From positions 1 to 55,788 of the IMG/VR virus record IMGVR_UViG_3300041997_000014: DNA of 55,788 nucleotides; one strand, written 5' to 3'. Under the pieces are notes generated by a model that saw only the letters and a program-made list of their open reading frames with translations, did not search any database and had not been told where the DNA came from. The position numbers were made by a program, and so were the translations under genes. Positions 7,427 through 49,200 of the stretch are shown here, one piece after another. Source of the stretch: a virus. Position 1 is the stretch's first letter. Every line of letters starts with the position of its first letter.

Positions 7427-8611
7427 TCAGGGCGATTCCTGGGCAATTCCCCCGCCCAGTAGGGCATCCGCCGCAGCGTTCTGCGCGGCGTCGAGCTTCC
7501 CCAATTCCCTGCCGCGGTCGGCCGCGTCGATCCACTTCGCGTAGGTCGAAAACAGCATCTTCGCCGAGCGGTGCCCCATCTGGCGCGAGATATAGGCCGG
7601 GTTGACCCCGCCCATCAGCGCCGAGGTGGCGTAGGTGTGCCGCGTGTTGTAGGCCCGCCGGTGGCGGATGCCAAGCCGCTTGAGCACGGGGCTCCAGTAG
7701 TGGTCGCGTTGGCTGCGCTCGTCGTGCCACGGTCGGCCGGTCACCGGGTTCATGAAGACGTCCGGCTCCTTCTTCATGAAGGTGTGCGGCTTCATCGTTT
7801 TCAGTGCCTCGAGCGCGCGCCGCGTCAGTTCGATGTCGCGCACCTGATAGGTCTTGATCGCCTTCGTCTCGCCGGCCACCCTGGCGCGCTCGATGCGAGC
7901 TGTTCCGTGCTGCCAGTCGATGTCGCCCCAGCGCAGCGCGATCTGCTCTTCAGGGCGCAGCCCGGTGGCGAAGGCGAAAGCGAAGTAGGCCCACACGCGA
8001 GGGTCGCAGTGCTTGTGCATGTGCGCCAGCACGCGGTCGCGCTCCTCGTCGCTGAGAGGATCCGGCGGCGGCTTCTGGTGCTGCACGTTCTCGATGCCGT
8101 CGGTCGGGTCGTCGAGCTTGATGTCACGGCCGGCAAGCCGGAACACCCCACGCAGGCAGATGAGGTAGTTGTTCAGCAGCTTCGGCGATGCCCAGGCATG
8201 CGAGCCGATCTTGGCCGCCATGGCCCCGTGCTTGATCGAGCGGATGGGCGTGGCGGCGCCGAACATGCCCTTCCACACCTCCAGCGCGTTGCGGTACTGG
8301 TCCTTCGTCTTTGTGGCCAGTTGCCCCTTGGATTCAAGGTACTGCTCGCAGGCCTTGCCGAACGTCAGGCTGCCAGCCAGCGGCGCGTGCTTCGAGTCCG
8401 GGAAGAAGGTCGCGTACTCGAAGGTGCCGGCCTTGATGGCGGCGCGCACGTCCTTGGCCAGCCGGCGCGCCACCTTGACGTTGACCGCTGTCGGCAGCTG
8501 CACCACGCCGTCGACCTTGAAGGTTTCTCGGCGGGGCTTCCCGACCGGCCAAGTGAAGGAGATGCGAATCGAACCGTCGCGCACGGTCACGCCGTCGCCG
8601 TCACGCCCCAT
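7427..8611 (-). CDS. int: Tyrosine-recombinase integrase
   Basis: The 394-residue integrase catalyses site-specific recombination between attP and a host tRNA gene. An N-terminal arm-binding domain (about residues 1-75, DUF3596-like) is followed by a SAM-like core-binding domain (80-175) and the catalytic domain. Catalytic residues are visible: R219 (TGLRPEE), probable K250, R324-H325 in YNTRHTY (the usual first His is Tyr), H347 (MGHRS) and nucleophile Y357 (STYAKW). It is the last gene of the leftward early operon, overlaps the excisionase-like gene by 11 bases and ends beside the att core. Confidence 0.95.
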   Translation of the reverse strand: MGRDGDGVTVRDGSIRISFTWPVGKPRRETFKVDGVVQLPTAVNVKVARRLAKDVRAAIKAGTFEYATFFPDSKHAPLAGSLTFGKACEQYLESKGQLATKTKDQYRNALEVWKGMFGAATPIRSIKHGAMAAKIGSHAWASPKLLNNYLICLRGVFRLAGRDIKLDDPTDGIENVQHQKPPPDPLSDEERDRVLAHMHKHCDPRVWAYFAFAFATGLRPEEQIALRWGDIDWQHGTARIERARVAGETKAIKTYQVRDIELTRRALEALKTMKPHTFMKKEPDVFMNPVTGRPWHDERSQRDHYWSPVLKRLGIRHRRAYNTRHTYATSALMGGVNPAYISRQMGHRSAKMLFSTYAKWIDAADRGRELGKLDAAQNAAADALLGGGIAQESP

Positions 8612-10660: not shown

Positions 10661-11148
10661 GGGGTCGGTGCTCCTGGGCAAACGATCGGGGTCCAGTGGG
10701 TGTGGTGGCCGGTCCAGCTTTCGCAGTTCGGGTGGCCGACGTAGGGGTCCTCCTCGAGGGGGAACTTCCACCACAGCACGCAGCTGTCTTCCTCGTTCCA
10801 CTCGTCGAGCGGGCGCGGGCGTGGGCTGGCCAGCTGGGCTGCGGTGGCCGCAAACCGAACGACCTGGGCGTCGGACTTCTCCAGCTCGTCGGCGGCCTCC
10901 TGCATCAGCTGGTCGGCCTGGTTGAGCGCAACGGCGCGCTCGACCGTGTAGCCCGCGAAGCGCTCGGGATAGTCCGCCTGGTGCTGGCGCAGCCACTCGC
11001 GCGCCCCTCGCTCCGGGTCGAGCACCGCGTCAGGCCCCTCGCGGCTGAACCACATGGCCATGCCCTTGCGGTCGGGCGTCACGATGCGCCATTCGATGCG
11101 GCCTGCGCTGGCCTCGCGCAGGCGGCGGATGAGGTCGGCGTTGATCAT
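10657..11148 (-). CDS. Early-operon hypothetical protein
   Basis: The 163-residue protein is coupled at both ends by ATGA overlaps. It begins MINADLIRRLREAS, is mainly helical, and contains a Trp/Cys-rich C-terminal segment (CVLWWKFPLEEDPY, CESWTGHHTHW) with His residues that might bind metal. No family recognised. The overlaps suggest stoichiometric expression with the flanking genes. Confidence 0.6.
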   Translation of the reverse strand: MINADLIRRLREASAGRIEWRIVTPDRKGMAMWFSREGPDAVLDPERGAREWLRQHQADYPERFAGYTVERAVALNQADQLMQEAADELEKSDAQVVRFAATAAQLASPRPRPLDEWNEEDSCVLWWKFPLEEDPYVGHPNCESWTGHHTHWTPIVCPGAPTP

Positions 11149-11663: not shown

Positions 11664-11665
11664 GG

Positions 11666-12307
11666 TCAAGCCCTCCGAAATTCGATGGCCCATACCCAGG
11701 GATTCGCCTCCACGCTGCCCGGGCCGTTGATGGCCTCCCACAGCGATAGGTACGACTGGCAGGGGTTATGGCAGTGAAAGTGCGTGCCGTCCTCGACGTG
11801 CCACCCCATCAGCGAATTGCTGAAGACGATGCCCTCGGCCTTGGCGTCAGTGCCGCTGATGTCCTGCAGCCGCTCGATGCGGACGCCGGTCACCTCCAGC
11901 GTGATGCGGCTGGCGGCGCGCGGCATGTGGATGCTGGGTTTCCATCCGCGGCAGGCGTGCCTGACGATTGCATCCAGCGTTCGGGCCAAGTCTTCGCTGC
12001 GCGGGTCGGCTCGGTAGAGGAAGCGCTCATCGCTACCGCGGCACCACGTCTCGCGCACCCACAGCCGATCGCCGGGCTTGCCGTAGGGGCACGCGATCGG
12101 CGACTCGATGTCGTAGCCCTTCGAGTCCCGGTAGAAGCTGCTCTCCCCATCACCGCTGCGATAGGGAACCGGGCCGCGGCCGTAGTCCTGCAGCACAAAG
12201 CCCTCATCGTTGCCGACCGGCTTCACCGCCCGCCGCGTCTGCGTCTTCGTGCCGGCCAGGATCGCGCGCACCATCGGCGCGCTGAAGAGGATGGGGATGT
12301 CCTTCAT
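11666..12307 (-). CDS. ASCH-like phage protein
   Basis: The 213-residue protein shows a recurrent phage pattern: ILFSAPMVRAILAGTKTQTRR, then CPYGKPGDRLWVRETW, PSIHMPRAASRITLEVTGV, ERLQDIS and the closing NPWVWAIEFRR. This belongs to the ASCH/PUA-like beta-barrel group, which probably binds RNA or modified nucleotides. It is two bases from the LAGLIDADG gene and overlaps the DUF1643 gene. The molecular role is unknown. Confidence 0.75.
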   Translation of the reverse strand: MKDIPILFSAPMVRAILAGTKTQTRRAVKPVGNDEGFVLQDYGRGPVPYRSGDGESSFYRDSKGYDIESPIACPYGKPGDRLWVRETWCRGSDERFLYRADPRSEDLARTLDAIVRHACRGWKPSIHMPRAASRITLEVTGVRIERLQDISGTDAKAEGIVFSNSLMGWHVEDGTHFHCHNPCQSYLSLWEAINGPGSVEANPWVWAIEFRRA

Positions 12308-12807
12308 TGCGCTCCCCCGAGAAGTGGCACGGGCGTGCAGCTGTAGGGCAGCATCAGCGGGTGCTCGGGAATGCCGTCAGCGAGCAGGCGCAGCGCGCGC
12401 AGGCGCACGCCGGCAAGCGCGAGATACGAGGCCAGTTCGCGCGGCCGGTTGAGGTTGCGGGCGTTGGCGCCCCACGCGCAGATGACGTAGCCGCGCTCGT
12501 GCGCCTGCATCGCCTCAAGGCGCCCGGTGATGATGCTGTCGTTGTCGGGGCCGATCGGATACCCGGCATTGCGCAGGTCGGCGGGCTTGGTGGCGCGGAA
12601 GGCGAAGAGGTTGAACACCTCGATGCCGCCGAACCCGAGGCGCGTGGCGAAGCCGATGCACTTGCGGATGGTGGGGTCGTCCTCGGCCGCGTCGGCGGTG
12701 CTCGGGTTGAGCATGATGAAGACGAGCGGCTTCAGCGCCGAGTCCCACTCGCGCGTGAGGCGGTACCGGAAGCGACCGCAGTCGCTGATGGTGGCGTCGC
12801 GCTTCAT
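12304..12807 (-). CDS. DUF1643 family protein
   Basis: The 167-residue protein has the DUF1643 signature: FIMLNPSTADAAEDDPTIRKC near residue 30, GFGGIEVFNLFAFRATKP and a mid-protein GPDNDSII, then YVICAWGANA. Members occur in phages and mobile elements and their biochemical function is unknown. The gene is coupled to the ASCH-like gene by ATGA. Confidence 0.8.
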   Translation of the reverse strand: MKRDATISDCGRFRYRLTREWDSALKPLVFIMLNPSTADAAEDDPTIRKCIGFATRLGFGGIEVFNLFAFRATKPADLRNAGYPIGPDNDSIITGRLEAMQAHERGYVICAWGANARNLNRPRELASYLALAGVRLRALRLLADGIPEHPLMLPYSCTPVPLLGGAQ

Positions 12808-12810
12808 GGC

Positions 12811-13173
12811 TCAGTCCGTCGGCCCGAAGGGCGTTCCGCTGCGATCGCCCATCCAGCCGCGCTGCGGCAGCGGCTCGATCATCTGGTTGACCATCGGCCC
12901 GTTCATGAAGACCGGGCCCTGCACCACGGGCGAGAAGCGCACGTAGGCGGGCAGGATCGCCGGCAGCGTCATCTCGTCGCGCACCGTGCTGGGCAGCAGC
13001 AGCACCCAGCCCTGGTCGGGCGGGCAGCCCTTGCGGACCATGAACTCGCGGAAGGGCTCCGGCGGCGTCTCGGCGAGCAGCTTGGCCGCGCGCTGGATAG
13101 CTTCCAGCGTGAGCGGCCCGGTGGTGCCCGTGCTGGCGGTGCTGGCGCTGGTACAGGGGTCGTCGTCGATCAC
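12811..13173 (-). CDS. Early-operon hypothetical protein
   Basis: The 120-residue protein has a Ser/Thr-rich N-terminus, a helix (LEAIQRAAKLLAETPPEPFREFM) and a Pro/Met-rich C-terminal half (VVQGPVFMNGPMVNQMIEPL). It starts 126 bases downstream of the preceding gene in a stretch with no recognisable promoter. No family recognised. Confidence 0.5.
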   Translation of the reverse strand: MIDDDPCTSASTASTGTTGPLTLEAIQRAAKLLAETPPEPFREFMVRKGCPPDQGWVLLLPSTVRDEMTLPAILPAYVRFSPVVQGPVFMNGPMVNQMIEPLPQRGWMGDRSGTPFGPTD

Positions 13174-13299
13174 AAGGACTCCAGGTGTGGGGTGGGGCCG
13201 GACGTACCGGGAAACACGAGCCGCGCGGATGTGAAGGAGGTGACGAGGAATTGCAACCCCGCCGCGCGCGTCGTGACCGCCGGGCCGGCCCCGTTGAAC

Positions 13300-13602
13300 T
13301 CAGGTGGTGGCCGCGCTGGGTGCTGCGGCCTGGGCGCGCGCCTGGCCGGTCTGGTAGGGCATCCAGGTCGCCACGTAGTCGCCGGCGCCGTGCCGGTCGT
13401 CGGCGCCCGGATCGCGCAGCGGCACCGAGCAGCGCGCGAAGGTGTTGCCCTGGTGGTCCGTGACTCGCAGGTTCACGCAGGTGTCGCCCCACACGTAGAC
13501 GATGGTGGCGTCGAACGGCACCGTGGGGTTGTTGATGTTGCCGGCGAGGGTCGGCTCGTAGAACCAGACCTTGCGGCCGATCGTGGGCTTGATGCTGCTC
13601 AT
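13300..13602 (-). CDS. Small beta-barrel-like phage protein
   Basis: The 100-residue protein begins KPTIGRKVWFYEP and continues with PFDATIVYVWGDTCVNLRVTDHQGN and a C-terminal ATWMPYQ. This arrangement is typical of a small SH3-like phage protein common in early operons of betaproteobacterial and pseudomonad phages. Function unknown. The Shine-Dalgarno is weak. Confidence 0.6.
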   Translation of the reverse strand: MSSIKPTIGRKVWFYEPTLAGNINNPTVPFDATIVYVWGDTCVNLRVTDHQGNTFARCSVPLRDPGADDRHGAGDYVATWMPYQTGQARAQAAAPSAATT

Positions 13603-13663
13603 GAGGTGCTTTCAGAGAGTTGAAGGGAATGGGCCGCGCTCCACCGGCGCGCGGCGGGGCCGG

Positions 13664-13999
13664 TCAGCGGCAGGCCTTGCGGTGCCGCTTCTGGTTGCGC
13701 TTCTTGCGGGCCATGCGCTGGCCCTGGCGGACGGACCAGCCGTCGTTGGCCAGGTACTTCCACCGGCGCGTGGTCCACGGGCGCCGCGCCCAGGCCTCCT
13801 TCTCAGACAACCCGCCGCGGCGGGCGTCCGAGTTGGTGTCGCCGGTGCCGACGGTGCCGCCGGTGGCGACCGTGGTGCGCGTCGATCGCGCGCCATCGGT
13901 CGACGACTGCGCAACGGCGGGTGCGGGCGCCGGCACCGCGCTGGCGCCCAGCAGCGCCAAGGCGCCGATGGCCAGCAGGTTGGAGCGTGAGCTGCGCAT
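13664..13999 (-). CDS. Secreted basic hypothetical protein
   Basis: The 111-residue protein starts with a plausible signal peptide: basic start, hydrophobic LLAIGALALLGASAV, Ala-rich end with cleavage near AVAQS. The mature part is Ser/Thr/Gly-rich and then strongly basic (ARKKRNQKRHRKACR). It starts two bases after the stop of the DUF2303 gene. Export of so basic a protein is odd; membrane or nucleic-acid contact is possible. Confidence 0.5.
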   Translation of the reverse strand: MRSSRSNLLAIGALALLGASAVPAPAPAVAQSSTDGARSTRTTVATGGTVGTGDTNSDARRGGLSEKEAWARRPWTTRRWKYLANDGWSVRQGQRMARKKRNQKRHRKACR

Positions 14000-14001
14000 G
14001 G

Positions 14002-14868
14002 TCAGTCGCAGGAGCCCATCAGCAGCGGCACCGCGCCCAGGCCCTGGCGCACGGTGCTGATGAGGTCGTCAGCCGCAGCCTTGTGGGCCTTGTCCAGGCG
14101 CTGCAGCTCGTAGTAGAACGACAGCTTCCCGGCGTTGTTCCGGTACTTCAGCCGCGCCACGAGCGAGCTGGCCATCAGGTCACCGTGGAACACGGGGATG
14201 GCGATGCCGAAGCGCTCGAACAGCTGCATTGCCTCGGTGGTGCCCGCGTCCGCATCGGCGATGTACGTCAGGCGTTGGCCACCGCTTTGCAGCTTCACCG
14301 CGGACTTGAAGACCTTCTCCTCGTTCATCACGAAGTTGGTGGCCATTTCCATCAACTGGATGCTCGTGGGCAGGCTGTTGGAGCCGCTGTTGATGTCTTC
14401 CTCGTGGTCCTGCAGCCACTGCGCGAAGTCGACCTGCGAGAACCCCTTCCGGTCCATCGCCTTCCAGGCTTTCCACTCCGCGCTCATGTCGGGAGTGAAC
14501 GTGGCCTTGTGGCGGCGCCAGCCGGCGGTGCCCTTGACGTGCTCGTCGATCACGCCGGTGAACGACAGCGCGAACGTCTGCGGGTCGAACGAGCACCAGA
14601 CCACGGAGCCATCGTCGGTGGCGTGGCGCTTCATGTAGGCCAGGAAACTCGCGGAGTGCGAGAAGACGGCGGTGGCCTCGGTGGCGCGCGGGTGCGCCAG
14701 GTGTTCCTCAAGGTCCACTTCGAGCTTCCTGACGTCAGTGCCCTTCGGCACGGCCGCGTGCAGGATCTTGAGCCCGGTCACGCCGGTGTCGACGGTGTCG
14801 AGCACCTGGGCCTTCGGCAGCACTTCGGCCAACGTCTCGGCCAAGTTCTTCGCGTTTTGCATGTCCAT
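14002..14868 (-). CDS. DUF2303 family protein
   Basis: The 288-residue protein fits DUF2303: a central FSHSASFLAYMKRHATDDGSVVW-type segment, then LSFTGVIDEH, WRRHKATF and a helix DFAQWLQDHEEDINSG, with a C-terminal beta region ending in a helix. DUF2303 proteins are commonly encoded in recombination/replication operons of temperate phages; the function is unknown. AGGAGAA precedes the ATG. It is paired with the gene at 14908-15312. Confidence 0.8.
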   Translation of the reverse strand: MDMQNAKNLAETLAEVLPKAQVLDTVDTGVTGLKILHAAVPKGTDVRKLEVDLEEHLAHPRATEATAVFSHSASFLAYMKRHATDDGSVVWCSFDPQTFALSFTGVIDEHVKGTAGWRRHKATFTPDMSAEWKAWKAMDRKGFSQVDFAQWLQDHEEDINSGSNSLPTSIQLMEMATNFVMNEEKVFKSAVKLQSGGQRLTYIADADAGTTEAMQLFERFGIAIPVFHGDLMASSLVARLKYRNNAGKLSFYYELQRLDKAHKAAADDLISTVRQGLGAVPLLMGSCD

Positions 14869-22493: not shown

Positions 22494-22910
22494 ATGGATT
22501 TCAAGCCGACAACCCACGCGGCGATGCGTGGGGAGGTCTTGGTGCTCACGGTGAAGGGTTTGCTGCGAGGCATGCCCGGCATCACCGAGGTGCGCTCACA
22601 GGTGATCAGGGAGATCGACGATCACCCGGCGGCGCGGGCAGTGGTCATCGACCTGCTGAAGGCCATCCCTGCAATCTCGCTGAGCGACTGGATGGCCTTC
22701 AAGGCGTCCGGGCCCAGCGTGCCGATCAGACCGACGCTACCGATCGCGCTCGTGGTCTCGCCTGACTTCATCGGGTATGGCTGCGAGTACACCGTGGCCA
22801 TGGCTGAGCACGACCTGCGGCGCTTCTTCTTCATTTCGCCCGCTGACGCCTTTTCGTGGGCGGCTGCCCGCCTGGAGCGTTTGCCGCATCTTTCAGGCGC
22901 GCTGCAGTAG
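22494..22910 (+). CDS. STAS/SpoIIAA-like protein
   Basis: The 138-residue protein begins MDFKPTTHAAMRGEVLVLTV and has a STAS-like alternation: a first strand, a helix, AARAVVIDLLKAIPAISLSDW (strand-loop-helix), IALVVSPDF and a final strand RRFFFISPADAFSWAAARL, matching the usual phi-F-x-D-x-x-A-W ending. It is rightward while its neighbours are leftward, and its last 80 bases overlap the end of the repressor gene head-on. It may be prophage cargo; a phosphorelay-like partner is not present. Family assignment is tentative. Confidence 0.5.
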   Translation: MDFKPTTHAAMRGEVLVLTVKGLLRGMPGITEVRSQVIREIDDHPAARAVVIDLLKAIPAISLSDWMAFKASGPSVPIRPTLPIALVVSPDFIGYGCEYTVAMAEHDLRRFFFISPADAFSWAAARLERLPHLSGALQ

Positions 22911-23370
22911 ACACGCTCTTCGCGCGCGGCAGGATTTCGGCGACGTGCATGGCAGCCTCTGCGGCCACATCGCTGGCGACGGTCGGCGTGCGTGCGGGTT
23001 GCGCGGACTTGCCGGCGTTGTTCACGGCTGCACGCAGCACCGCTTCCCGGATGTCGCGGGCCACTGCTGAAGGCAGCATCCGGTAGGCGTTGAGGATCGT
23101 CACCTCGTCCTCATTGAGGATGGCACCGGCTGCCGCGGCGTGGTCGTGATCCATCCAGTTCTCCGGCTTCCCCATGGCCTGTTCCAGCCGGCGCGCCATG
23201 TCCGTGCCCAGCTCCCGCGGCCTTCCGCTCTTGTGGTCCTGGATGCGGTTGACGACCTGGCTTAGGTAGATCGGCGTCGTCTCTGCTCGTTCAGCAAGCG
23301 CGTGCTGTGTTCCAGCCTCCTTGATCAGCGCCAGCAAGTTGGCCAGCCGAATTTCGGCGATCGATTTCAT
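22831..23370 (-). CDS. CI-like HTH repressor lacking a peptidase domain
   Basis: The 179-residue protein has an XRE-type HTH (residues about 5-65: LANLLALIKEAGTQHALAERAETTPIYLSQVVN) with adjacent RRLEQAMGKPENWM, typical of prophage repressors. The rest is a helical Ala-rich C-terminus ending in a basic tail; there is no S24/LexA-type Ser-Lys autoprotease, so classical RecA-stimulated self-cleavage is not expected. It sits divergent from the Cro-like gene with three operator-like dyads between. The ATG at 23370 fits family N-termini; an upstream ATG near 23469 would read across the operators and is rejected. Confidence 0.8.
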   Translation of the reverse strand: MKSIAEIRLANLLALIKEAGTQHALAERAETTPIYLSQVVNRIQDHKSGRPRELGTDMARRLEQAMGKPENWMDHDHAAAAGAILNEDEVTILNAYRMLPSAVARDIREAVLRAAVNNAGKSAQPARTPTVASDVAAEAAMHVAEILPRAKSVSTAARLKDAANAPGGQPPTKRRQRAK

Positions 23371-23378
23371 GCCGCGGA

Positions 23379-23403
23379 TTGTTAGCGCGCCGCTACGTTC
23401 CGC
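23379..23403 (-). promoter_or_regulatory. PRM-like promoter for the repressor, giving a leaderless mRNA
   Basis: On the minus strand TAACAA (23379-23384) is the only -10-like box close to the repressor ATG, and the ATG follows it by eight bases, so a transcript from here would start at or next to the AUG. No Shine-Dalgarno is present. The -35 is poor, as in activator-dependent PRM promoters. The operator-like site 23382-23396 overlaps the -10, allowing negative autoregulation. Confidence 0.4.
23382..23396. promoter_or_regulatory. Degenerate operator-like dyad near the repressor start
   Basis: TTAGCG-CGC-CGCTAC keeps the AGCG/CGCT core of the operators but deviates symmetrically at the outer positions, which suggests weaker binding. 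Its centre is 47 bases from the next site. It is placed like the OR3 site of lambda. Confidence 0.55.
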
Positions 23404-23428
23404 GAAGAAGCAGGCCGCTTCCGGCCTG

Positions 23429-23443
23429 TAAGCGGGCCGCTTG
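23429..23443. promoter_or_regulatory. Operator-like dyad over the PR -35 box
   Basis: TAAGCG-GGC-CGCTTG matches the dyad with one outer mismatch and overlaps the first three bases of TTGACT. Its centre is 22 bases from the next site. Confidence 0.8.
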
Positions 23444-23469
23444 ACTTCGATAAGCGCGTCGCTTAGCAT
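23441..23469 (+). promoter_or_regulatory. PR-like rightward early promoter with start site at the cro AUG
   Basis: TTGACT (23441-23446), a 17-base spacer and TAGCAT (23464-23469) form a sigma70 promoter. The expected start site is about seven bases after the -10, which is exactly the A of the ATG at 23476. The cro-like mRNA would therefore be leaderless, and no Shine-Dalgarno precedes the ATG. Confidence 0.8.
23451..23465. promoter_or_regulatory. Operator-like dyad in the PR spacer and -10
   Basis: TAAGCG-CGT-CGCTTA is a perfect 6+3+6 dyad lying in the PR spacer and touching the -10 box. With the site centred 22 bases away it mirrors the pair at the leftward promoter. Confidence 0.8.
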
Positions 23470-23475
23470 GATTGC

Positions 23476-23751
23476 ATGGACCTCAAGTCGTACCTGGAAG
23501 GTGAGGGGCGTGGCAGGCTGACGCTGCTCGCCGCCTCTATCGCCGCGCAATCGCAGCTCGTGTGGCAGTGGGCGAACGGCGTCCGATCCGTGCCGGACAT
23601 CCGCTGCCCATCGATCGAGCGCGCCACCGACGGTGCCGTGACCTGCGAAGAGCTTCGCCCCGATGTGAAGTGGTCGCGCATCAAGGACAAGGCCTGGCCG
23701 CACCCACAAGGCCGCCCGGTGATCGATGTGGCGCGCGTGGAAGCTACCTGA
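23476..23751 (+). CDS. YdaS/Cro-like DNA-binding protein
   Basis: The 91-residue protein begins MDLKSYLEGEGRGRLTLLAA, followed by IAAQSQLVWQWANGVRSVP and CPSIERATDGAVTCEELRPD, the complete YdaS-antitoxin/Cro HTH pattern used by many lambdoid prophages as Cro. A C-terminal extension follows. It is divergent from the repressor and is the first gene from PR. The start is fixed by family alignment and by an in-frame stop four codons upstream, so the leader has effectively no length. Confidence 0.85.
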   Translation: MDLKSYLEGEGRGRLTLLAASIAAQSQLVWQWANGVRSVPDIRCPSIERATDGAVTCEELRPDVKWSRIKDKAWPHPQGRPVIDVARVEAT

Positions 23752-26105: not shown

Positions 26106-26290
26106 GCACCTGGGCCGACGAATACATGACGCTGATCGAGGACTGCGAAAAACGCGAGTCCCGCCTCAACGACTGGCAACGCACGTTCATCGACTCCATG
26201 CGTCGCCAGATCGAAGCTGGCTACCGCCCCACGCCAAAGCAGATCGAAGCGCTTGATGACGTGTGGGAACACGCCACGAAGAAGGGCTGA
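26102..26290 (+). CDS. Small helical early protein with recurrent phage C-terminus
   Basis: The 62-residue protein has the recurrent phage segment LNDWQRTFIDSMRRQIEAGY followed by TPKQIEALDDVW. This unit is found alone or at the end of larger early proteins in many phages. No catalytic residues. It is two bases from the methyltransferase start and probably co-translated. Confidence 0.6.
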   Translation: MSTWADEYMTLIEDCEKRESRLNDWQRTFIDSMRRQIEAGYRPTPKQIEALDDVWEHATKKG

Positions 26291-26292
26291 CC

Positions 26293-28092
26293 ATGCTGAC
26301 CCCGCAATTCATGCTCCCGCTTGCACACGAACTGGTCATTGATTTGTTCGCAGGAGGAGGGGGCGCCAGCACCGGCATCGAGCAGGCCATCGGCCGGCAC
26401 GTCGACATCGCGGTCAACCACGACCCCGATGCCGTCGGCATGCACGAGGCGAACCACCCGCAGACGAAGCACTACCTGTGCGACGTGTTCGAGGTGGACC
26501 CGCTGGAGGCGACGCAGGGCCGCCCGGTGGGCCTGCTGCACGCCAGCCCGGACTGCACCCACCACAGCCAGGCGCTGGGCGGGCAGCCGCGCAGTCGCGC
26601 CATCCGCAGCCTGGCCTGGGCTGTGCACAAGTGGGTCGGCAAGCTCGTTGCGCGTGGGCTTGGGCCCTGCGTCGTCACGCTGGAGAACGTCAAGCAGATG
26701 ATGCTGTGGGCGCCGCTGGTGGCGAAGCGCGACAAGGCCACCGGCCGCGTCGTGCGCGTCGATGGCAGCGTGGCCGCGAAGGGCGAGCGCGTGCCGGTGA
26801 ATGAGCAGTGGCTGGTGCCGTGCCCGAAGCGCACGGGCCGCAACTGGCAGCACTTCATCGACGGCCTGCGCGCCATGGGTGCCACCGCCATTCAGTGGCG
26901 CGTGATCGTCAATGCGAACCTCGGCGCGCACAGCACGCGCGAGCGCCTGTACGTGGTGATTCGCTTCGACGGCGAGCCGATCGTGTGGCCCGAGCAAACG
27001 CACGCGAAGAGCCCGAAGAAAGGCCAGCAGCGCTGGAAGCCGGCGGCCGACTGCATCGACTGGAGCATCCCGGGCCGCAGCATCTTCGACCGGCCGAAGC
27101 CGCTGGCCGACGCGACGATGCGCCGCATCGCCTTCGGCATGCATCGGTTCGTGCTGGATGCGCCGGAGCCGTTCATCGTGCCGGCGACGCACACGGACGC
27201 CAGCAACCGCACGCGGCCACTGAGCGAGCCCATGCCCACCGTCACGGCGGCCAACCGCGGGGAACTGATGCTGCTGGCGCCGACGCTGGTGCCCGTGACG
27301 CACAGCCGCGACACAGCCTTCGATCCGCGCGACCCGTTGCGCACCATCACCACCGCCAAAGGCGGCGAAACAGCGCTCGCGGCGGCAACCCTGGTGCAGA
27401 TGTGCTACGGCGAGCGCAAAGGCCAGGCGCCGCGCGCGCTCGACCTTGGCCAGCCCCTCGGCACCGTGGTGGCCGGCGGCCAAAAGCATGGGCTGACGAC
27501 GGCCTTCATGGTGCAAGCCAACGGCGGCTTCAACGACACCCATGCGCGCGCCCTGCGCGCCCCGATGTCCACCGTGACCACCACCGGCAGCCAGCAGCAG
27601 CTGATCGCCGCGCATCTCACCGCGCTGCGCCGGCACAGCACCGGCAGTGACCTGCGCGGGCCTGCCCCAACGATCACGGCCGGCGGCGAGCATCACGCGC
27701 TGGTGCAGTACCACCTGGCGCAGGAGCAGGAAGCCGGAGCGCTGCGCGTGGCCGCGTTCCTGATGCGCTACCACGGCACCGGCGGCCAGTGGGCCGACCT
27801 GCGCGACCCGATGACCACCGTGACCACGCACGACCGCCTGGCGCTGGTCACCGTGTGGATTCGTGGCGAGCCATGGGTGATCGTGGACATCTGCCTGCGC
27901 ATGCTGGTGCCGCGCGAGCTCTACAACGCGCAGGACTTCCCGCCCACCTACATCATCGACCGCACCGCTGCCGGCAAGGTGCTCACGAAGACCGCGCAGG
28001 TGCGCATGTGCGGCAACTCGGTTTCGCCCTTGCCGTTGCGCCTCATCGTCGCTGGCAACTACGCCGAGCAGGTAATGCGGAGGGCCGCTTGA
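26293..28092 (+). CDS. C5 cytosine DNA methyltransferase with repeated target-recognition region
   Basis: The 599-residue enzyme methylates cytosine C5 in DNA using SAM. Motif I is DLFAGGGGAS (from residue 17), motif IV is ASPDCTHHSQ with nucleophile C88, motif VI is LENV (E131), motif VIII is WRVIVNANLGAHSTRERLYVV and motif X is GNSVSPLPLRLI near the C-terminus. Between VIII and X lie six degenerate repeats of the form P-x-x-T-(V/I)-T/V, at about residues 313, 347, 387, 423, 456 and 505, where this family normally has one or two. They enlarge the recognition domain and may give several specificities. It probably protects phage DNA from host restriction. Confidence 0.92.
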   Translation: MLTPQFMLPLAHELVIDLFAGGGGASTGIEQAIGRHVDIAVNHDPDAVGMHEANHPQTKHYLCDVFEVDPLEATQGRPVGLLHASPDCTHHSQALGGQPRSRAIRSLAWAVHKWVGKLVARGLGPCVVTLENVKQMMLWAPLVAKRDKATGRVVRVDGSVAAKGERVPVNEQWLVPCPKRTGRNWQHFIDGLRAMGATAIQWRVIVNANLGAHSTRERLYVVIRFDGEPIVWPEQTHAKSPKKGQQRWKPAADCIDWSIPGRSIFDRPKPLADATMRRIAFGMHRFVLDAPEPFIVPATHTDASNRTRPLSEPMPTVTAANRGELMLLAPTLVPVTHSRDTAFDPRDPLRTITTAKGGETALAAATLVQMCYGERKGQAPRALDLGQPLGTVVAGGQKHGLTTAFMVQANGGFNDTHARALRAPMSTVTTTGSQQQLIAAHLTALRRHSTGSDLRGPAPTITAGGEHHALVQYHLAQEQEAGALRVAAFLMRYHGTGGQWADLRDPMTTVTTHDRLALVTVWIRGEPWVIVDICLRMLVPRELYNAQDFPPTYIIDRTAAGKVLTKTAQVRMCGNSVSPLPLRLIVAGNYAEQVMRRAA

Positions 28093-34465: not shown

Positions 34466-34704
34466 GGCGCCGTGCTCACGCAGAGCCAGGTGCAAACCGC
34501 GCTCGCTGGTAGCCACCGGCCGGCGCCGCCACGTTTCCACGCCCCGCCGGATGCCGCCTCCCCACTTGGAGGTGCCGACGCAGGACCAGCCAGCCGGCGG
34601 TGCAGCCAACACCGGCATCCGCTGACGACCGCACGAGACGGACGACTCCTCCCTACCTCGCGCACGGGCGGCGGAACACAACCTCCCAACCGGGAAACCA
34701 CCAC

Positions 34705-35202
34705 ATGGCACCCTTCTATGTCTACGAACTCGTCGACCCGCGGGACGGGTCCGTGTTCTACGTCGGGAAGGGCAAGGGTCGCCGTATCTCGCACCACGTC
34801 AGGACCGCACGCCGCGGCATCGTGGACAACGCCGAGAAGTTCAAGCGCATCGAGGCGATCCACGAAGCCAGCCTGATCGTCGAAGAGAGGATCATCTCGC
34901 GCCACGTCAGCGAAAGCGATGCCTACGCCGCGGAGCGCGAGCGCATCGCTGAACTGCGAGGCAGCCTGACCAACATCGTCGGCGGCGTCGTCACGAACGA
35001 AGAGAGGCGCCGCGAACAAGCCAAAGCGGCGCTTGCGCGGTTGAAGCCCTACGACGAATGGGTTTCCGGTATGCATGAAGACCAGCGCCGGTCAGCTGAA
35101 TTCCTCGGCGGCGAGCGCTACATCTACGACACGGTGTGCAAACAACTCGCGATGATCGCGAATGGGGCCGACACATGGGGCGCCCGAGCAAGTTCACGCT
35201 GA
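34705..35202 (+). CDS. GIY-YIG endonuclease next to the terminase genes
   Basis: The 165-residue protein shows a GIY-YIG core: FYVYELVDPRDGSVFYVGKG (residues 4-23), the following basic GKGRRISHH with catalytic-type Arg, and ERIISRHVSESDAYAAERER carrying the acidic helix. This resembles LEM3/SLX1-like single-domain nucleases. It overlaps the start of terS by 28 bases. Its place directly before the terminase fits a homing endonuclease or a packaging-associated nuclease. Confidence 0.8.
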   Translation: MAPFYVYELVDPRDGSVFYVGKGKGRRISHHVRTARRGIVDNAEKFKRIEAIHEASLIVEERIISRHVSESDAYAAERERIAELRGSLTNIVGGVVTNEERRREQAKAALARLKPYDEWVSGMHEDQRRSAEFLGGERYIYDTVCKQLAMIANGADTWGARASSR

Positions 35203-40629: not shown

Positions 40630-41244
40630 ATGACCGCGCGCAACGTGGCCGGGACGCTCCCGGTCAATGCCAACGTCAACCGCGTCCGGCAATTCGACCT
40701 GCAGGCCTCGCAAGAGGGCTACGGGTCGGTTCCTGGCGCGGTGTCGGCCAACGTCACCGCGACCGAGGCGGGTGTCGGCGTCGTTCACCAGACGACGCTG
40801 ACGCTTTCCGCGCTCGCGCAGGCTGTGGCCAACGGCACCGAGTACCAGGGCACCAAGATCTACGACTTCCCCGAGGGTCGGATCTTGGTCTTGGGCGTGG
40901 TGGCCACGCTCCAGCAGACCACCACCAGCGCCCTCGCTGGCACGCTGAACGCGAGCTCGACCGGCGCGGTGGCGCTCGGCACGGCGACCGCGTCGAACGT
41001 CTCGCTGACCTCGACGATGGTCGACCTGCTGCCGTCGACCGCGTTCACCTCGTCGGCCACGGTCGACGTGGCGGGCACGGCTGTCGCTGCCGCGCTCGCC
41101 GCGTCGGCGCAGTTCGACGGCCGCAGCACGGCGAAGGACGTTTACCTGAACTCGGCCTTCGCCACGACCACCGACGTGGACGGTGATGCGTCGATGACCT
41201 GGTCGGGCAGCGTCACCATCACCTGGATCAACCTGGGCGACTGA
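40630..41244 (+). CDS. Head-associated structural protein
   Basis: The 204-residue protein is Ala/Thr/Ser-rich and beta-structured, with VVHQTTLTLSALAQAVANGT and a closing DASMTWSGSVTITWINLGD. Such sequences, placed between cement and connector genes, are usually minor capsid or head-decoration proteins. It starts one base after the preceding stop. Exact role unknown. Confidence 0.6.
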   Translation: MTARNVAGTLPVNANVNRVRQFDLQASQEGYGSVPGAVSANVTATEAGVGVVHQTTLTLSALAQAVANGTEYQGTKIYDFPEGRILVLGVVATLQQTTTSALAGTLNASSTGAVALGTATASNVSLTSTMVDLLPSTAFTSSATVDVAGTAVAAALAASAQFDGRSTAKDVYLNSAFATTTDVDGDASMTWSGSVTITWINLGD

Positions 41245-41249
41245 GGACC

Positions 41250-41492
41250 ATGACCAAGCAAGTCACACACACCGTTTACGACGCTGCTGGGAAGCCGCAC
41301 ACCGTCGAGCCCGTCGACGCTCGGGAGTACGTGGCTTCGGGCCACTACTTCCGCGAGCCGCCGGAGGCCCAGAAGGTTGCGCCCGCCGCGCCGGCTGCGC
41401 CTGAACCGGCACCGACGCCGACGCCGACGCCGGCCGAGCAGGTGGTTGCCGAGGCGAAGGCTGCTGACGCCAAGACGAAGGCGAAGGGCTGA
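41250..41492 (+). CDS. Small Pro/Ala-rich virion-region protein
   Basis: The 80-residue protein has a short folded N-terminus (VYDAAGKPHTVEPVDAREYV) and a disordered tail with PTPTPTP and Lys/Ala-rich helix. Similar short proteins occur between capsid and connector genes in many phages without known role. Confidence 0.55.
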   Translation: MTKQVTHTVYDAAGKPHTVEPVDAREYVASGHYFREPPEAQKVAPAAPAAPEPAPTPTPTPAEQVVAEAKAADAKTKAKG

Positions 41493-41495
41493 CCC

Positions 41496-41876
41496 GTGAC
41501 CCTGACCGACGCGCAGATCGTCGACCTGCGGCGCTGGCTCGGCTACCCGCTGGCCAGCGCCACAGGCGTCGAGACGGTCTACACGCCGGACTCGCCGCGC
41601 GTGTCGTTCACGGCCCGCCTGGAGGCGTTGTCGGCCAGCGAGGAAACGGTGCTGGTCGAGCGCTTCCTGGACAAGCTGGCGCTGCTTGAGCAGGCGATCC
41701 TCGATGCGGCTGACAACCTCGACACGGACACCGCCGGCCCGTGGAAGGCGAACCATCGCGAGATCTCGCAGCGCAAGTCGCTGTACAACAGCACGCGGCG
41801 CGAGATGTGCGCGTTCCTGGGCTTCGAGCCCGGCCCGAGCCTGGGCACCGGCGCGATCTTCGCGACGCGCTGCTGA
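41496..41876 (+). CDS. Head-tail connector-like protein
   Basis: The 126-residue protein is helical: TDAQIVDLRRWLGYPL at the N-terminus, then VERFLDKLALLEQAILDAAD, and REMCAFLGFEPGP at the end. Size, helical make-up and position after the capsid genes fit an adaptor protein of the head-tail interface. Inferred from synteny. Confidence 0.6.
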   Translation: MTLTDAQIVDLRRWLGYPLASATGVETVYTPDSPRVSFTARLEALSASEETVLVERFLDKLALLEQAILDAADNLDTDTAGPWKANHREISQRKSLYNSTRREMCAFLGFEPGPSLGTGAIFATRC

Positions 41877-43423: not shown

Positions 43424-44212
43424 ATGGCAATCATCTCTAACTCCGACCTGCAGGCCATCTGCGACAAGCTCGCGCGTTGGGCTGCCATGAGCGTCGGCGA
43501 CGACGCATTTGACGACTCCTTCAATGCTGGCATGGCTGCGGCCAATGCGGCCGTGATGACCGGCTCGGGCTCGCTGCAGACGTACCTGTTCGAGACGGTC
43601 ACGGACGCCGACGTCGCGGCCGATCTGCTGGGCGCTGCGCGCGACCTCGAGGAAAGCCAGCCGGTCCCGCCGACCCGCTTCATGATCGGCATTGCCGGCA
43701 TCTCGGCGTTCTTCGCGGCGCTGAACCGGCACATCGCCCGGTACTCGGTCTACTCGACGCTCGATGCGTACCTGACCAGCCTGAATGCCTCGTCGCCGAC
43801 GCTGCGTGTGCACCAGGCGCTGCACGACCACCTGAAGGCGTTCAGCCGCAAGAACGTGTTCATCGCGAACGACACGGTCCTGGCCACCATCAGCATCACC
43901 GGCGCCGCGGCTGGCACGTTCGCCAGCGTGGCGACGATCGGCAGCGCCTACGCCGGCGCCAAGCTCGTTGCGAAGAACCAGGGCGCGACGGACAGCGATG
44001 CGGTGCTCAGCATCACCGGCAAGAAGGTCGACGGCACGACCCAGGTGCTGACCGTCACCTGCAGCACGAACACCGACGACGCGGAGCACGACCTGTCGAG
44101 CACCGCGAAGCTGTTCACCGAGGTGACCGCGATCAGCGTCACCAGCGACGGCACGAACGGCAACGTGATCGAGATCGTTGCCAAGACCGACCGCGACATC
44201 AGCGCCGCCTGA
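43424..44212 (+). CDS. Tail-region structural protein, unknown
   Basis: The 262-residue protein has a helical N-terminal half (LQAICDKLARWAAMSVGDDA, FFAALNRHIARYSVYSTLDA) and a beta-rich Ig-like C-terminal half (about 160-262: ITGKKVDGTTQVLTVTCSTN, AISVTSDGTNGNVIEIVAKT). It is encoded immediately before the tail tube protein. It is likely a virion component; the C-terminal domain may decorate the tail. Confidence 0.6.
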   Translation: MAIISNSDLQAICDKLARWAAMSVGDDAFDDSFNAGMAAANAAVMTGSGSLQTYLFETVTDADVAADLLGAARDLEESQPVPPTRFMIGIAGISAFFAALNRHIARYSVYSTLDAYLTSLNASSPTLRVHQALHDHLKAFSRKNVFIANDTVLATISITGAAAGTFASVATIGSAYAGAKLVAKNQGATDSDAVLSITGKKVDGTTQVLTVTCSTNTDDAEHDLSSTAKLFTEVTAISVTSDGTNGNVIEIVAKTDRDISAA

Positions 44213-44251: not shown

Positions 44252-45028
44252 ATGGCATCCCCGTACACCGATTCCTCGCAAGGCCTCTTTCAGGGGGTCC
44301 TCTACATCGCCGAACGCGCTTTCAACGGCGCTCAGCTCACCGGCTTCATGGACCTGGGACAGGTCGACATGTTCAGCATCGACCCGAAGCCGAAGCACGA
44401 GGACATCATGGACTCGCGCACGAGCCCTTCGGGCGTCATCAACCACATCCTCGTGGAGATGACGCACGCGACCAAGTTCCGCTCTCTCGACATCGCCATG
44501 AAGCACTGGGCCCGCGCCGTCTGGGGCGAGTGGGGCGGTGCCGTGGAAGGCGCGTCGGTCGCCGACGAGGCGATCACCCTCTACAACGGCTGCATGACGC
44601 CGTTGGCGCACCCGGGCGTCAGCAACGTCGTGATTTCCGGCGCGACGATCGACACGGACTACACGGTCAATGCAGCGGCCGGCGCGATCAATGTGAAGAC
44701 GACCTCGCCCGCGGCTCCGGACGGCACGCCGCTCGAGACGACCGTGGCCTACGACTTCGCCGACTACAACGGCGTGGTGCAGGCCTTCACTGTGCCGCAG
44801 AAGTACTTCACGCTGCGCCTGCATGGCATCAACGTCGCGCAGGGCGGCCAGCCGGTCATCGTGACGGTGCACCAGTGGGCGCCGGACCCGGTCGCGGTGC
44901 TCAACTTCATCGACAAGAAGCATCACGTCCACGAGCTCGGCGGGATGGTGCTGAAGGATGAGTTGGTCGACGAGCCGGTGGCCGGCAACGGCGACCGGTC
45001 GCAGTACTTCACGATCGCCAAGCGCTGA
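44252..45028 (+). CDS. Major tail protein (tail tube)
   Basis: The 258-residue protein lies directly before the tail-assembly chaperones, the fixed place of the tube protein. It has VDMFSIDPKPKHEDIMDSRT, LVEMTHATKFRSLDIAMKHW and AVLNFIDKKHHVHELGGMVL, a beta-sandwich pattern with a late DRSQYFTIAKR ending typical of tube subunits. No sheath gene is present, so the tail is non-contractile. Confidence 0.82.
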   Translation: MASPYTDSSQGLFQGVLYIAERAFNGAQLTGFMDLGQVDMFSIDPKPKHEDIMDSRTSPSGVINHILVEMTHATKFRSLDIAMKHWARAVWGEWGGAVEGASVADEAITLYNGCMTPLAHPGVSNVVISGATIDTDYTVNAAAGAINVKTTSPAAPDGTPLETTVAYDFADYNGVVQAFTVPQKYFTLRLHGINVAQGGQPVIVTVHQWAPDPVAVLNFIDKKHHVHELGGMVLKDELVDEPVAGNGDRSQYFTIAKR

Positions 45029-45068: not shown

Positions 45069-45578
45069 TTGAGCGATACCAAGAACGACATGGACATCCT
45101 CTTTCCTGGAGAGGATGTCACAGTGCGCCTGCGTGGCAACGCGGAGCCGGAGGTAGTCCGCGTCGAGCCGTTCTACTCGACGCAGCTGAAGCCGGCCGCG
45201 AAGCTCATGCGGCCACTGGCCGAGACGCTGTTCGGCGCGGGCCTGTTGGACGTGAAGCGCGCGGCCGATGGCAAGGTGACGATGGAGATCGGCACCAACA
45301 TCATGGGCGCCATCTTCGCGATCCTGGAGGACGGGAGCGACCAGCTGATCGACTTCGTGGGCTTCGCGATCGGCAAGCCGCGCGACTGGTTCGACGGCCT
45401 GCCGCCAGATGGGCTGATCGAACTCGCGGAGGCCGTCTACCGGCAGAACAGCGATTTTTTCAAGCAGCGCATCCTGCCCAAGCTCCAGGCGTGGATGCCC
45501 GAGGCGCTGCCGATTGGGGCGCAGTCTTCGCAAGACTCATCGAACACGGCCACAGCCGCGCCGACATCGACCGAATGA
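45069..45578 (+). CDS. Tail assembly chaperone, short form (gpG-like)
   Basis: The 169-residue protein starts at a TTG with GGAG seven bases upstream; the ATG at 45090 is an alternative. It contains VVRVEPFYSTQLKPAAKLMR and QLIDFVGFAIGKPRDWFDGL, matching lambda gpG-type chaperones before the tape measure. A slippery TTTTTTC at 45455-45461 lies 39 codons before its stop; slipping back one base fuses the first 131 residues to a second frame ending at 45685, making the gpGT form of 205 residues. Confidence 0.88.
   Translation: MSDTKNDMDILFPGEDVTVRLRGNAEPEVVRVEPFYSTQLKPAAKLMRPLAETLFGAGLLDVKRAADGKVTMEIGTNIMGAIFAILEDGSDQLIDFVGFAIGKPRDWFDGLPPDGLIELAEAVYRQNSDFFKQRILPKLQAWMPEALPIGAQSSQDSSNTATAAPTSTE
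45455..45461 (+). other. Slippery heptamer for programmed -1 frameshift
   Basis: In the chaperone frame the bases read T-TTT-TTC (last base of GAT, then TTT TTC), a canonical X-XXY-YYZ heptamer. The -1 frame is open from here to 45685, while the zero frame ends at 45578. The arrangement is that of gpG/gpGT in lambda-like tails. Confidence 0.88.
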
Positions 45579-45685
45579 CGCTGGCGCAGATGACGCTGTT
45601 CCTTGAGCATGGCGAAAAGCTGGTGGAGCTGCGCCACAAGCAGCTGGCCAACCGCGTCGCGGTGACCCTCTTCGGCTCGGACTAG
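45461..45685 (+). CDS. Tail assembly chaperone, frameshift extension (T part)
   Basis: This 74-codon extension is reached by the -1 frameshift. It reads into DWGAVFARLIEHGHSRADID, RMTLAQMTLFLEHGEKLVEL and HKQLANRVAVTLFGSD, helical and rich in charged residues as expected of the T domain that recruits the tail tube to the tape measure. An internal GTG at 45491 could start a separate protein, but coupling through the slip site is more likely. The stop overlaps the antisense Mrr stop by two bases within CTAG. Confidence 0.85.
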   Translation, partial: QAAHPAQAPGVDARGAADWGAVFARLIEHGHSRADIDRMTLAQMTLFLEHGEKLVELRHKQLANRVAVTLFGSD

Positions 45686-46200
45686 GGCACGCGCGCCAGT
45701 CGCTCCAGCGCAGGCAGATCCACATGGCTCAGCAGCATCACCGCGTTGCTGTGTGCAAGCTGCTGGGCGGCCAGGGTGTAGCCCGCTGGGCAGGCGACGA
45801 CGGCGATCTGGCATCCGTGGTGCCGCTGGCCGGCCACGACCTGCTGCACAGCCGCGTTGCCGGCCGGGCGGGTGTACTTCTTGGCCTGCAGCGCCACGCG
45901 CGTGCCGCGCAGTTCCGCGATGACGTCGACGCCCTGGTCGCCGATACCGCCGATCACGGTGACGCGCCAGCCGGCGGCCCGGAGCAGCTCGGCGCAGTGG
46001 GCCTCGTACTCGATGGGGCTCATCGTGGACAGGTCCAGGCCGAGGATGTGGCGCTTCCGGCGCTCGTTCTCGCGCACCGCGAAGACGACCAGCAGCGCCA
46101 CGAATCCGGCGGTTGGCCACGGGTGCTCGATGGCAATGCCGACCAGCAGCGCGAGCCCGAGTCCGATGGCCACCAGGCCGCCTGAGATCACCCGAAACAT
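45682..46200 (-). CDS. Membrane-anchored Mrr-type restriction endonuclease, antisense in the tail operon
   Basis: The 172-residue protein has two N-terminal membrane segments (about residues 4-24 and 30-42) followed by a basic stop-transfer RENERRKRH. The cytoplasmic domain is an Mrr/restriction endonuclease-like fold: SPIEYEAHCAELLRAAGW (with E64), GDQGVDVIAE (D92) and VALQAKKY (Q105-x-K107), forming the D-QxK site. It lies between the chaperones and the tape measure and ends in CTAG shared with the chaperone stop. It probably attacks incoming or modified DNA; its own promoter is not evident. Confidence 0.85.
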   Translation of the reverse strand: MFRVISGGLVAIGLGLALLVGIAIEHPWPTAGFVALLVVFAVRENERRKRHILGLDLSTMSPIEYEAHCAELLRAAGWRVTVIGGIGDQGVDVIAELRGTRVALQAKKYTRPAGNAAVQQVVAGQRHHGCQIAVVACPAGYTLAAQQLAHSNAVMLLSHVDLPALERLARVP

Positions 46201-46216
46201 CCCGTCAAGGTAGCAC

Positions 46217-49200
46217 ATGGCCAACATGAATGTCGCGATGTCGCTGACGCTGGCGGACACCGCCAGCGCGCCGCTGCGTGCGTTCATCGGCATCGTCGAG
46301 CGCCTGCAGACCACCGCGAACCGTCTGGTGCCGCGGCTGGAGGCCATGGCTGCTGGCATCACGAACGTGATCCGCGCGGCCAGCAACAGCAGCGCCGTGG
46401 AGCGGCTGGCCGGCCACGTCGGCACGTTGAACGCCGCGCTCGGGAACACCCAGGCCGCGGCCCGTGGCGCGGCGACCGGCATTGGCAACGTGAGCGCGCG
46501 CGCATCGTCCGGGGGAACTGCGGTCTATGCGCTCGAGCAGGCCGTTGCGGCCATGACCGGAGCGCTGACCCGCGCCGCCGGTGTGATGACTTCGACGGCT
46601 GCAGGCATGCAGCAGATGGGCGCCGGCGCGCGGACTGGCGCCGGGCACCTGAACGCCGCCGGCGCTGCCGCGCAGACCGCGAACCAGCACTTCAGCTCGC
46701 TCCGGCAGACCATGGTCGGCATGGCGCAGCTGTGGGGCGCCATGAAGCTCAAGGACGGCTTCGTGGCTTCGGTCACCGGCGCGTCCGCCTTCGAGACCAG
46801 CAAAGCCCGCGCGCAGACGATGGGCCTGACGGACAGCGAGCGCGCGCGCATCGAGACCGCAGCGCTCGCGGCGAAAACGCTGGTGCCGCAGTTCGACCGC
46901 CGGCAGACGTTCGAGATGGCGATCGACCTCAAGAACGCCATGAACTCGCTCGACAACGCCCTGAAGGTGTTGCCCGAGATGGCCCAGTTCGCGCAGAACC
47001 TGAAGAGCCAGACCAAGGACGGGAAGATCGACGACAACATCCTCGTCAACGTCGGCAAGATCCTCCAGCAGCGCGGCGCCGTGACCGATCCGGCCAAGAT
47101 GCGCGCCGAGGCCGACATGCTGCTCAAGATCATGACAGCCACGCAGGGCCGCGTGAACGTCGAGACGATGTTCAGCAACCTGTCCCAGATGAAGGGCGCG
47201 CTGTCGGGCGACAACGTCAGCCGCGACTTCCTGCCGGTGCTCGCCGGCCTGGCCGAGATGAACCGCAACGGCAACGGCGGCACGCTGGGCACGCAGCTGA
47301 CGACCATGGCCCGCTACGTGATGGGCAACGTCGCGAACGGCATGAGCGCCAAGGAGGCGCACCGCCTGGGCCTGCTCGAGCATGAGCCGCAGTGGAACAC
47401 CCTGGGCAACATCGACCTGAAGAAGTCCGAGTTGCGCATGAAGGGCTCGGCGCTGTTCCAGCAGAACCCGCTGGAGTGGGTCAAGCAGTTCCTGCTGCCA
47501 GCCATCGCGCGGTCCGGCGCCGACATGGGCGACGCGAACGAGATCAACGCCATCATCAACCGGATCTTCAAGGACCGGAATGCCGGCGAGATCGCCGGCA
47601 CCATGGCGACGAAGCACCGCCAACTCGACGCCGACGCGGCCAACGTGAACCGCGCGCTGGGCAGCAAGGAGCAGACCGAGATCAACTCCCAGACCTCGCA
47701 GGCGAAGTGGGACGCGCTGACCGGCAAGCTGCGCGACCTGGCGATCGTCGTCGGCGAGAAGCTGCTCCCCCCGCTGCGCCTCGTGGCCGACGTGCTCGCG
47801 AAGATGTTCGACGGCGTCGGTGCCTTCTTCAAGGCCTTCCCGGCCAGCGCGACGTTCCTCGTCTGGGTCACGGCACTCGGTGCTGTCGGCCTGGCGGTGC
47901 GCGGCTTCATGGGCCTGTTCGGGATCCTTGGCACCTTCAGCGGGCTGATCGGTGGCGTGGGCACCGCGGCCACTGCCGCGGGCGCCGCGGCCGGTACCGG
48001 TTTCTTCGCCCGGCTGGCCGCCGGGTTCGCTTCCTTCGGTGGCTTCGGCGTGCTGATGACCAGGCTCGCCGGCGTGGTGGCTTTCGCCTTCACGCGCATG
48101 ATCCCGCTGGTCGGGGTGCTGCTGCTGGCCTGGGACTTCGCGAAGATCCTCGGCAACGTCGAAGTCTTCGGCAAGAGCCTGAAGGCCTGGGCCGGCGACT
48201 TGGTGGACTTCATCATCGGCCGCTTCAAGTCGATGTTCAGCTTCATGGCCGCGGCCTTCGAGGCTGGCCACGCCGCTGGGCGCGCCATCGCTGACGCGCT
48301 CCGCATCCCGAGCGGTGACGCGCGCCCCGGCCCGCGCCGCGGCGGCAACGCTGCGGAGCGCCGCGGGCTGGTCTACGTGGCGGCGGGGGAGGGTGGCACG
48401 GCCGGCGACTTCGCTCGGGTCGATCGCGCGCCTGACGCTGGCCGCCTCGATGGCCGCGCCGTTTTCGACGGCGCCTACCGCGGCATGCGGTCGGACGCGC
48501 GCGCGCCGGCAGCCCCTTCGATTGGTGCTGGGACTGGCGCCGCGGGCTCAACTGGCGGCGGCGGTGGTGGTGGTGGTGGGATGCGTGCTGTCCGCACGCC
48601 TGATGGCGCCATCGTGCTGACCCCTGTCGAGCCGCGCAATGCGCCTTCGTCCATCGACAGCCTGGGACCGATCACCGTCGATGCTCCGAGCGTCGGCAGC
48701 GCCATCGGCGCGCTGCCAAGCCCCGAGGTGTTGACGCAGGTCGCAGCCGCGGTGGTGGAGGTGACCCGGGCCACCAGCGACATGTCGCGCTCGATGGCCG
48801 ACGCGGCGCGCTCCGGCTTCGGTGACATGTTCTCCAGCATCCTGCGCGGCAGCGAGAGCGGCGGCAAGGCGATCGAGCGCTTCTTTCAGAACATGAAGAA
48901 CCGCTTCCTGGACATGATCGGCCAGAAGCTCGGCGACGCCCTCTTCGAGTCGCTGTTCGGCAGCATGCTCAGTGGAGGCAAGGGCGGCAAGGGCGGCGGC
49001 GACGGCGGCTGGCTGGGCATGCTGTTCAAGGGTGTCGGCATGCTGTTCGGTGGCAGCAGCAGCGGCGGCGGCGCGAGCGGCGCCAGCATGGACGGCTGGG
49101 TCAGCGGCGGCGGGTACTCGGTGGGTGGCGCCGGCGCCGGCATGGCCACCGGCACGAACTACGTGCCGCGCGACATGGTGGCGGTGATCCACAAGGGCGA

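Follow-up and report, generated by a model that had tools for sequence, protein, structure and literature searches.

The stretch of DNA analyzed here, hereafter the window, is the 55,788-nucleotide virus record IMGVR_UViG_3300041997_000014 from IMG/VR, and its tail module carries a gene, here called mrr, for a putative membrane-anchored nuclease of the Mrr_cat family (Table 1). The gene lies antisense between the genes for the tail assembly chaperone and the tape measure protein (TMP); this placement, together with the CTAG held in common with the chaperone stop, had been proposed in a sequence-only reading of the window and is borne out by the sequence and by phrog matches of the flanking genes. 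An alternative in-frame ATG at position 46218 would give a product of 178 amino acids (aa), and this start overlaps that of the TMP gene within a CATG. With stops overlapping at one end and starts at the other, mrr fills the interval exactly, without a single spare base, and the overlap of the starts leaves no room for an intergenic promoter.

At the GC content of the window (67%), the chance of such an open frame is about 0.02 per frame, so that openness alone is unsurprising. It is the match to Mrr_cat, the existence of homologues, and a ratio of nonsynonymous to synonymous substitution rates (dN/dS) of about 0.1-0.2 that identify mrr as a real gene. Across close pairs, dN/dS ranges from 0.08 to 0.27 and is lower in the catalytic domain. 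A consensus scan for a promoter inside the TMP gene found none, and divergence at fourfold-degenerate sites is only marginally reduced over its first 20 codons (0.27 versus about 0.39).

Table 1. Position and basis of the features of the window discussed in the text.
Feature	Coordinates	Strand	Basis or remark
mrr, putative membrane-anchored Mrr_cat nuclease	45682..46200	-	172 aa (P0001), frame intact
CTAG, mrr stop (-) overlapping chaperone-frame stop (+)	45682..45685		sequence
CATG, alternative mrr start (-) overlapping TMP start (+)	46216..46219		sequence
Mrr catalytic domain, PD-(D/E)XK fold, residues 58-161, D92...Q105-x-K107	45718..46029	-	Pfam, AlphaFold2, Foldseek
Predicted hairpin of two transmembrane helices (residues 2-25, 27-53)	46042..46197	-	AlphaFold2 secondary structure; hydropathy in relatives
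G43424, 262-aa protein of the tail module	43424-44212
Major tail protein	44252..45028	+	phrog_807, E=4e-35
Tail assembly chaperone	45069..45578	+	phrog_1442, E=8.7e-20
Overlapping -1 frame, probable chaperone frameshift extension	45491..45685	+	where G/GT chaperone frames usually lie; family scan negative
Tape measure protein, 1048 aa	46217..49363	+	phrog_1533, 25966, 1272 (E 1e-8 to 3e-7); tblastn to annotated tape measures
Tyrosine integrase	7427..8611	-	phrog_1, E=4.8e-54; PF00589, E=2.3e-17
Transcriptional repressor	22831..23709	-	phrog_12107, E=3.8e-17

The assignments of the major tail protein and the chaperone by family match are firm, and that of the TMP is supported by phrog matches that are individually weak but multiple. 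The integrase and the repressor mark the phage as temperate.

The encoded protein

By sequence, the mrr product belongs to the Mrr_cat family: PF04471 matches residues 58-162 with E=1.2e-19 and a score of 71 bits, where the cut-off is 21, and the same domain exceeds the curated cut-off in the records of all 22 relatives. The catalytic residues named in the sequence-only reading, D92, Q105, and K107, were numbered correctly and are invariant across 17 homologues, and the domain is catalytically complete as judged from these residues. Apart from Mrr_cat, the Pfam scan of the product yielded only a sub-threshold iREase match, with no Mrr_N winged helix.

An AlphaFold2 model built on the homologue alignment (mean predicted local distance difference test score of 84.6) places two long helices ahead of secondary structure elements in the PD-(D/E)XK order, in line with the two membrane helices claimed earlier, and hydropathy predicts the hairpin in 18 of 18 sequences of the window's group that were examined. 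Within this group, the catalytic part of the protein is better conserved (mean identity 71%) than the hairpin part (30%). The closest solved folds found by Foldseek are those of AF1548 and the modification-dependent enzymes MspJI and AspBHI, and a sequence search of the PDB gave LlaBIII as its sole match (E=0.00045). Among the PADLOC models, the Mrr part of ZorD matches 17 of 17 homologues and PDC-S02 matches 15 of 17, with the window protein itself aligning to PDC-S02 at E=2.2e-8 over profile positions 185-298 of 334 only.

Recurrence of mrr in related and unrelated tail modules

The sequence-only reading had regarded mrr as a single insertion and anticipated that, in related phages, the site would be a variable defence locus; neither expectation survived comparison. 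A scan with Mrr patterns yielded 80 loci, 19 of which have neck, G43424, major tail, chaperone, and TMP genes homologous to those of the window, with Mrr antisense in the same interval, and two scans baited with other tail genes added contigs L095, L100, L107, L137, and L143. Thus, Mrr has the identical place and orientation in about 24 additional viral contigs whose tail modules are homologous (several are near-identical, leaving about 21 distinct sequences), which rules out a one-off event. When a different tail gene served as bait, the nuclease was present in all 21 contigs whose slot was readable up to the TMP gene, and only Mrr was found directly upstream of that gene in this lineage, ruling out a variable locus there within the range sampled. 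Mrr-bearing phages had supplied the bait alignments, which covered anchor-protein relatives down to about 57% identity, so that more distant relatives without mrr could have escaped. All 13 records of the group that reach 34 kb or more encode a tyrosine integrase. In this temperate lineage, mrr is fixed and under selection.

Beyond this lineage, DMS3, Summit, and SIO-2, which have major tail proteins of the same family (approximately 25%-32% identity), have an empty chaperone-TMP interval, and mrr is therefore dispensable for the assembly of such tails. The patterns applied to 84,980 species genomes recovered no relatives of the window's group, and no relatives of P0001 were found among named phages.

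Some members of the group carry further genes nearby. In L026, a 4.5-kb insert between the chaperone and Mrr genes (10620-14592) holds Rha-like and HicB-like frames, recognized by eye. A subset encodes, on the sense strand between the same two genes, a conserved product of about 143 aa whose N-terminus resembles a signal peptide and which has no Pfam match (L154:11219-11650, L151:11166-11654, and L143:12113-12547). Sense-strand endonuclease genes between the major tail protein and chaperone genes (L137:8812-9507, L143:10659-11486, and L146:3415-4317), with an HNH domain confirmed by Pfam in L146 and presumed in L137 and L143, point to a second insertion point one gene upstream.

Antisense Mrr genes beside the TMP gene recur in at least 3 unrelated tail types. 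In the Rhodovastum phage-plasmid RHOApg, which has a contractile tail, Mrr lies antisense between the tail-completion gene and an adjoining gene for an 807-aa protein, again with a CTAG overlap, a plan common to L044, L046, L049, L060, L075, and L116/L117. Siphophage modules of the Firmicutes type (phrog_706/1535) likewise hold an antisense Mrr just upstream of the TMP gene, as in L072/L073 and L069, where the Mrr genes adjoin tape measures of the phrog_1535 type (E=7.5e-155 and 1.5e-60). Separately, L055 codes for a membrane Mrr in sense (9728-10624), two small genes upstream of a 1482-aa open reading frame that is possibly a tape measure.

In a maximum-likelihood tree, the window's group occupies a single branch and the remaining slot Mrr genes are scattered, ruling out a single origin for all of them. 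Well-supported branches require at least 4 changes of location, and the best tree has 8. In a rough binomial with one interval in fifty, P lies between about 0.003 for 5 entries of 51 and 1e-5 for 8 of 54, values that serve only as a guide because slot members had been used to seed the search profile.

The interval upstream of the TMP gene accepts other cargo as well, and variability of the kind anticipated for the window's lineage is seen here, in the contractile module. Among 17 contractile-tail contigs with a readable interval, retrieved by their tail-completion gene, the slot holds Mrr in 4, HicB plus HicA in 2, and HicAB with an M78 peptidase and a membrane protein in 1; P63C, a helix-turn-helix protein, and unknown genes occur once each, 4 slots hold only small uncertain frames, and 3 are empty. 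The named phages phiKX1 and phiKX2 have an empty slot. Recognized cargo always lies on the strand opposite to the tail genes. Examples are the antisense HicAB, M78 peptidase, and P63C genes upstream of a large tape-measure-like gene at L120:6578-8601, L123:6514-7148, and L119:6683-7744.

What does mrr do?

We favor, with a probability of roughly 0.55, the interpretation that the mrr product is a prophage-encoded superinfection-exclusion nuclease. The gene would be expressed during lysogeny and its product would be held in the membrane by the hairpin, where it could cut phage DNA as it enters, possibly guided by the tape measure of the incoming phage. Upon induction, late transcription of the tail operon would cross mrr in antisense and silence it, thereby sparing the phage from attack by its own nuclease. 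Superinfection defence by the prophage had already been put forward in the sequence-only reading, and much of its basis stands: mrr belongs to a temperate phage and runs against the late operon, its product has a conserved active site, an anchor is predicted in every examined relative, the interval is a cargo slot in other phages, and an at-injection nuclease, SNIPE, provides a precedent. By analogy, SNIPE, Tha, and Tab, the last being a prophage product able to act on a foreign tape measure, together make superinfection exclusion plausible.

Several observations weigh against this interpretation. Fixation in a lineage is less usual for a defence gene than variability. A consensus scan detected neither a sigma-70-like promoter nor a terminator for mrr, although the consensus may not be that of the host. 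Distances between Mrr proteins correlate with those between tape measures (rho 0.80) no more strongly than those between chaperones do (0.85), which speaks for vertical descent in a linked block rather than for recognition; the sliding-window co-variation of hairpin and tape measure is flat (rho 0.52-0.76) and uninformative on recognition. Finally, not all slot Mrr proteins have membrane helices: in the contractile group, one helix is present in L049, L060, and L075 and none in L044, L046, L053, and L116, the slot Mrr of L072 also lacks them, and several helix-less proteins carry a zinc ribbon instead, at their C-terminal end. Membrane action therefore cannot be general to the slot.

An unlikely alternative is that the product is a restriction enzyme tethered to the membrane and cutting incoming or modified DNA of any kind, be it plasmids, transforming DNA, or modified phage DNA, rather than specifically DNA in the tape-measure channel. 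The kinship in fold with MspJI and AspBHI and the annotation of plasmid Mrr relatives as restriction endonucleases would fit such an enzyme, and self DNA could be marked against it by a 609-aa DNA methyltransferase encoded at 26263-28092 of the window (phrog_23072, E=9.8e-82). However, the protein has no recognition domain beyond the Mrr domain and the hairpin, and general restriction leaves the repeated placement beside the tape measure unexplained. It is distinctly less probable that the product serves the phage itself, for instance by degrading host DNA or by acting in its own infection or assembly. Presence in 21 of 21 slots and co-inheritance with the tape measure would be expected of such a function, but mrr is antisense to the late operon, related tails assemble without it (DMS3, Summit, SIO-2, phiKX1, and phiKX2), and in contractile modules the slot is empty or filled with unrelated cargo.

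We attach equally little weight to the proposal that mrr is ordinary moron cargo, at a site chosen only because insertion there does least harm to tail expression, so that its place has no functional meaning. The slot indeed takes HicAB, P63C, M78 peptidase, and unknown genes, always in antisense, and the gene for gp15 of HK97 occupies the same interval; nevertheless, the window's lineage has only Mrr directly upstream of the TMP gene and has kept the hairpin in all 18 relatives examined. Least probable of all is a selfish homing-type nuclease spreading into the chaperone-TMP junction. The occurrence of a nuclease at the same conserved site across many phages, and the endonuclease genes one position upstream in L137, L143, and L146, recall homing; yet, the latter genes are on the sense strand, the predicted hairpin is conserved, Mrr and tape-measure distances agree as under vertical descent, and the slot Mrr genes are of several origins with unrelated flanking sequences.

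Superinfection exclusion by mrr could be part of a broader pattern, which we consider possible but doubtful: the pre-TMP interval would serve temperate phages in general as an antisense site for immunity genes, and Mrr nucleases would have come to occupy it independently. Their membrane forms would recognize incoming tape measures and cut DNA in transit, with interference from the late operon tying immunity to lysogeny. If so, phages would have in the slot Mrr their own equivalent of SNIPE, equipped with an inherent switch against self-attack, attack on DNA at injection would have arisen with a second, unrelated nuclease fold, and prophages would keep such a nuclease where its placement couples it to lysogeny. 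The opposite strand upstream of the TMP gene is a concrete locus to mine for superinfection-exclusion genes of temperate phages.

Other genes

Elsewhere in the window, a protein with a LEM-3-like GIY-YIG domain (PF22945, E=6.1e-9) is encoded at 34600-35202, close to the head genes, and the frame at 24917-25402 matches phrog_4786, "cysteine dioxygenase," with E=3.8e-56, an odd label for an early phage gene. In NZ_OW485608.1 (L008), a 372-bp gene by the holin (41176-41547) is listed in the plasmid table as an OCH beta-lactamase (100% identity), which is probably a wrong assignment.

Comparison with known systems

In the open-licence literature, we found no description of a slot nuclease of this kind. 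Nevertheless, the sequence-only reading, which had presented mrr as the best candidate for an undescribed anti-phage system, went too far, because precedents exist for the principle of attack at injection (SNIPE), for the use of this slot (gp15 of HK97), and for the antisense layout (Tha). SNIPE is an inner-membrane nuclease that associates with tape measure proteins and cleaves phage DNA as it is injected, leaving the resident prophage unaffected (PMC13190303). It resembles the mrr product in having a membrane anchor, which is predicted in the latter, and a variable N-terminal region ahead of a conserved nuclease. However, SNIPE combines GIY-YIG with DUF4041, neither of which was found in the Pfam scan of the mrr product, a 172-aa Mrr/PD-(D/E)XK protein encoded by a phage beside its TMP gene, and the likeness in action is at most an analogy.

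HK97 gp15 is a superinfection-exclusion moron, according to the title of Cumby et al. 2012 as cited in PMC11436027. Gene 15 lies, like mrr, between the genes for the chaperone (gp14) and the tape measure (gp16), but it encodes 62 aa by its coordinates and is in sense to the tail genes, whereas mrr is antisense and encodes an Mrr_cat domain. The small variable cargo loci between two conserved genes of P2 (gpA-gpQ) and P4 (psu-int) prophages are defence hotspots (PMC9122126) comparable to the present slot, although they lie at other sites and the cargo described here is antisense upstream of the TMP gene.

Among nucleases with related domains, ZorD has a homologous C-terminal Mrr_cat but is the helicase-nuclease of a larger system, and the PADLOC candidate PDC-S02 has models of 334-390 aa, of which only the C-terminal part matches the mrr product. 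The Mrr-type type IV restriction enzyme of Escherichia coli has an Mrr_N winged helix where the window protein has its predicted hairpin. The nearest parallel in layout is the noncontiguous Tha/Ith operon of Staphylococcus aureus prophages, in which a nuclease gene is nested, like mrr, antisense to genes activated by induction, so that immunity operates in lysogens and is shut down once the lytic phase begins (PMC11087260). Tha, however, is a HEPN RNase triggered by minor tail proteins and accompanied by a protein inhibitor, and it lies outside the tail operon. In its domain content, and with respect to gp15 also in its strand, the mrr product is thus distinct from SNIPE, gp15, and Tha.
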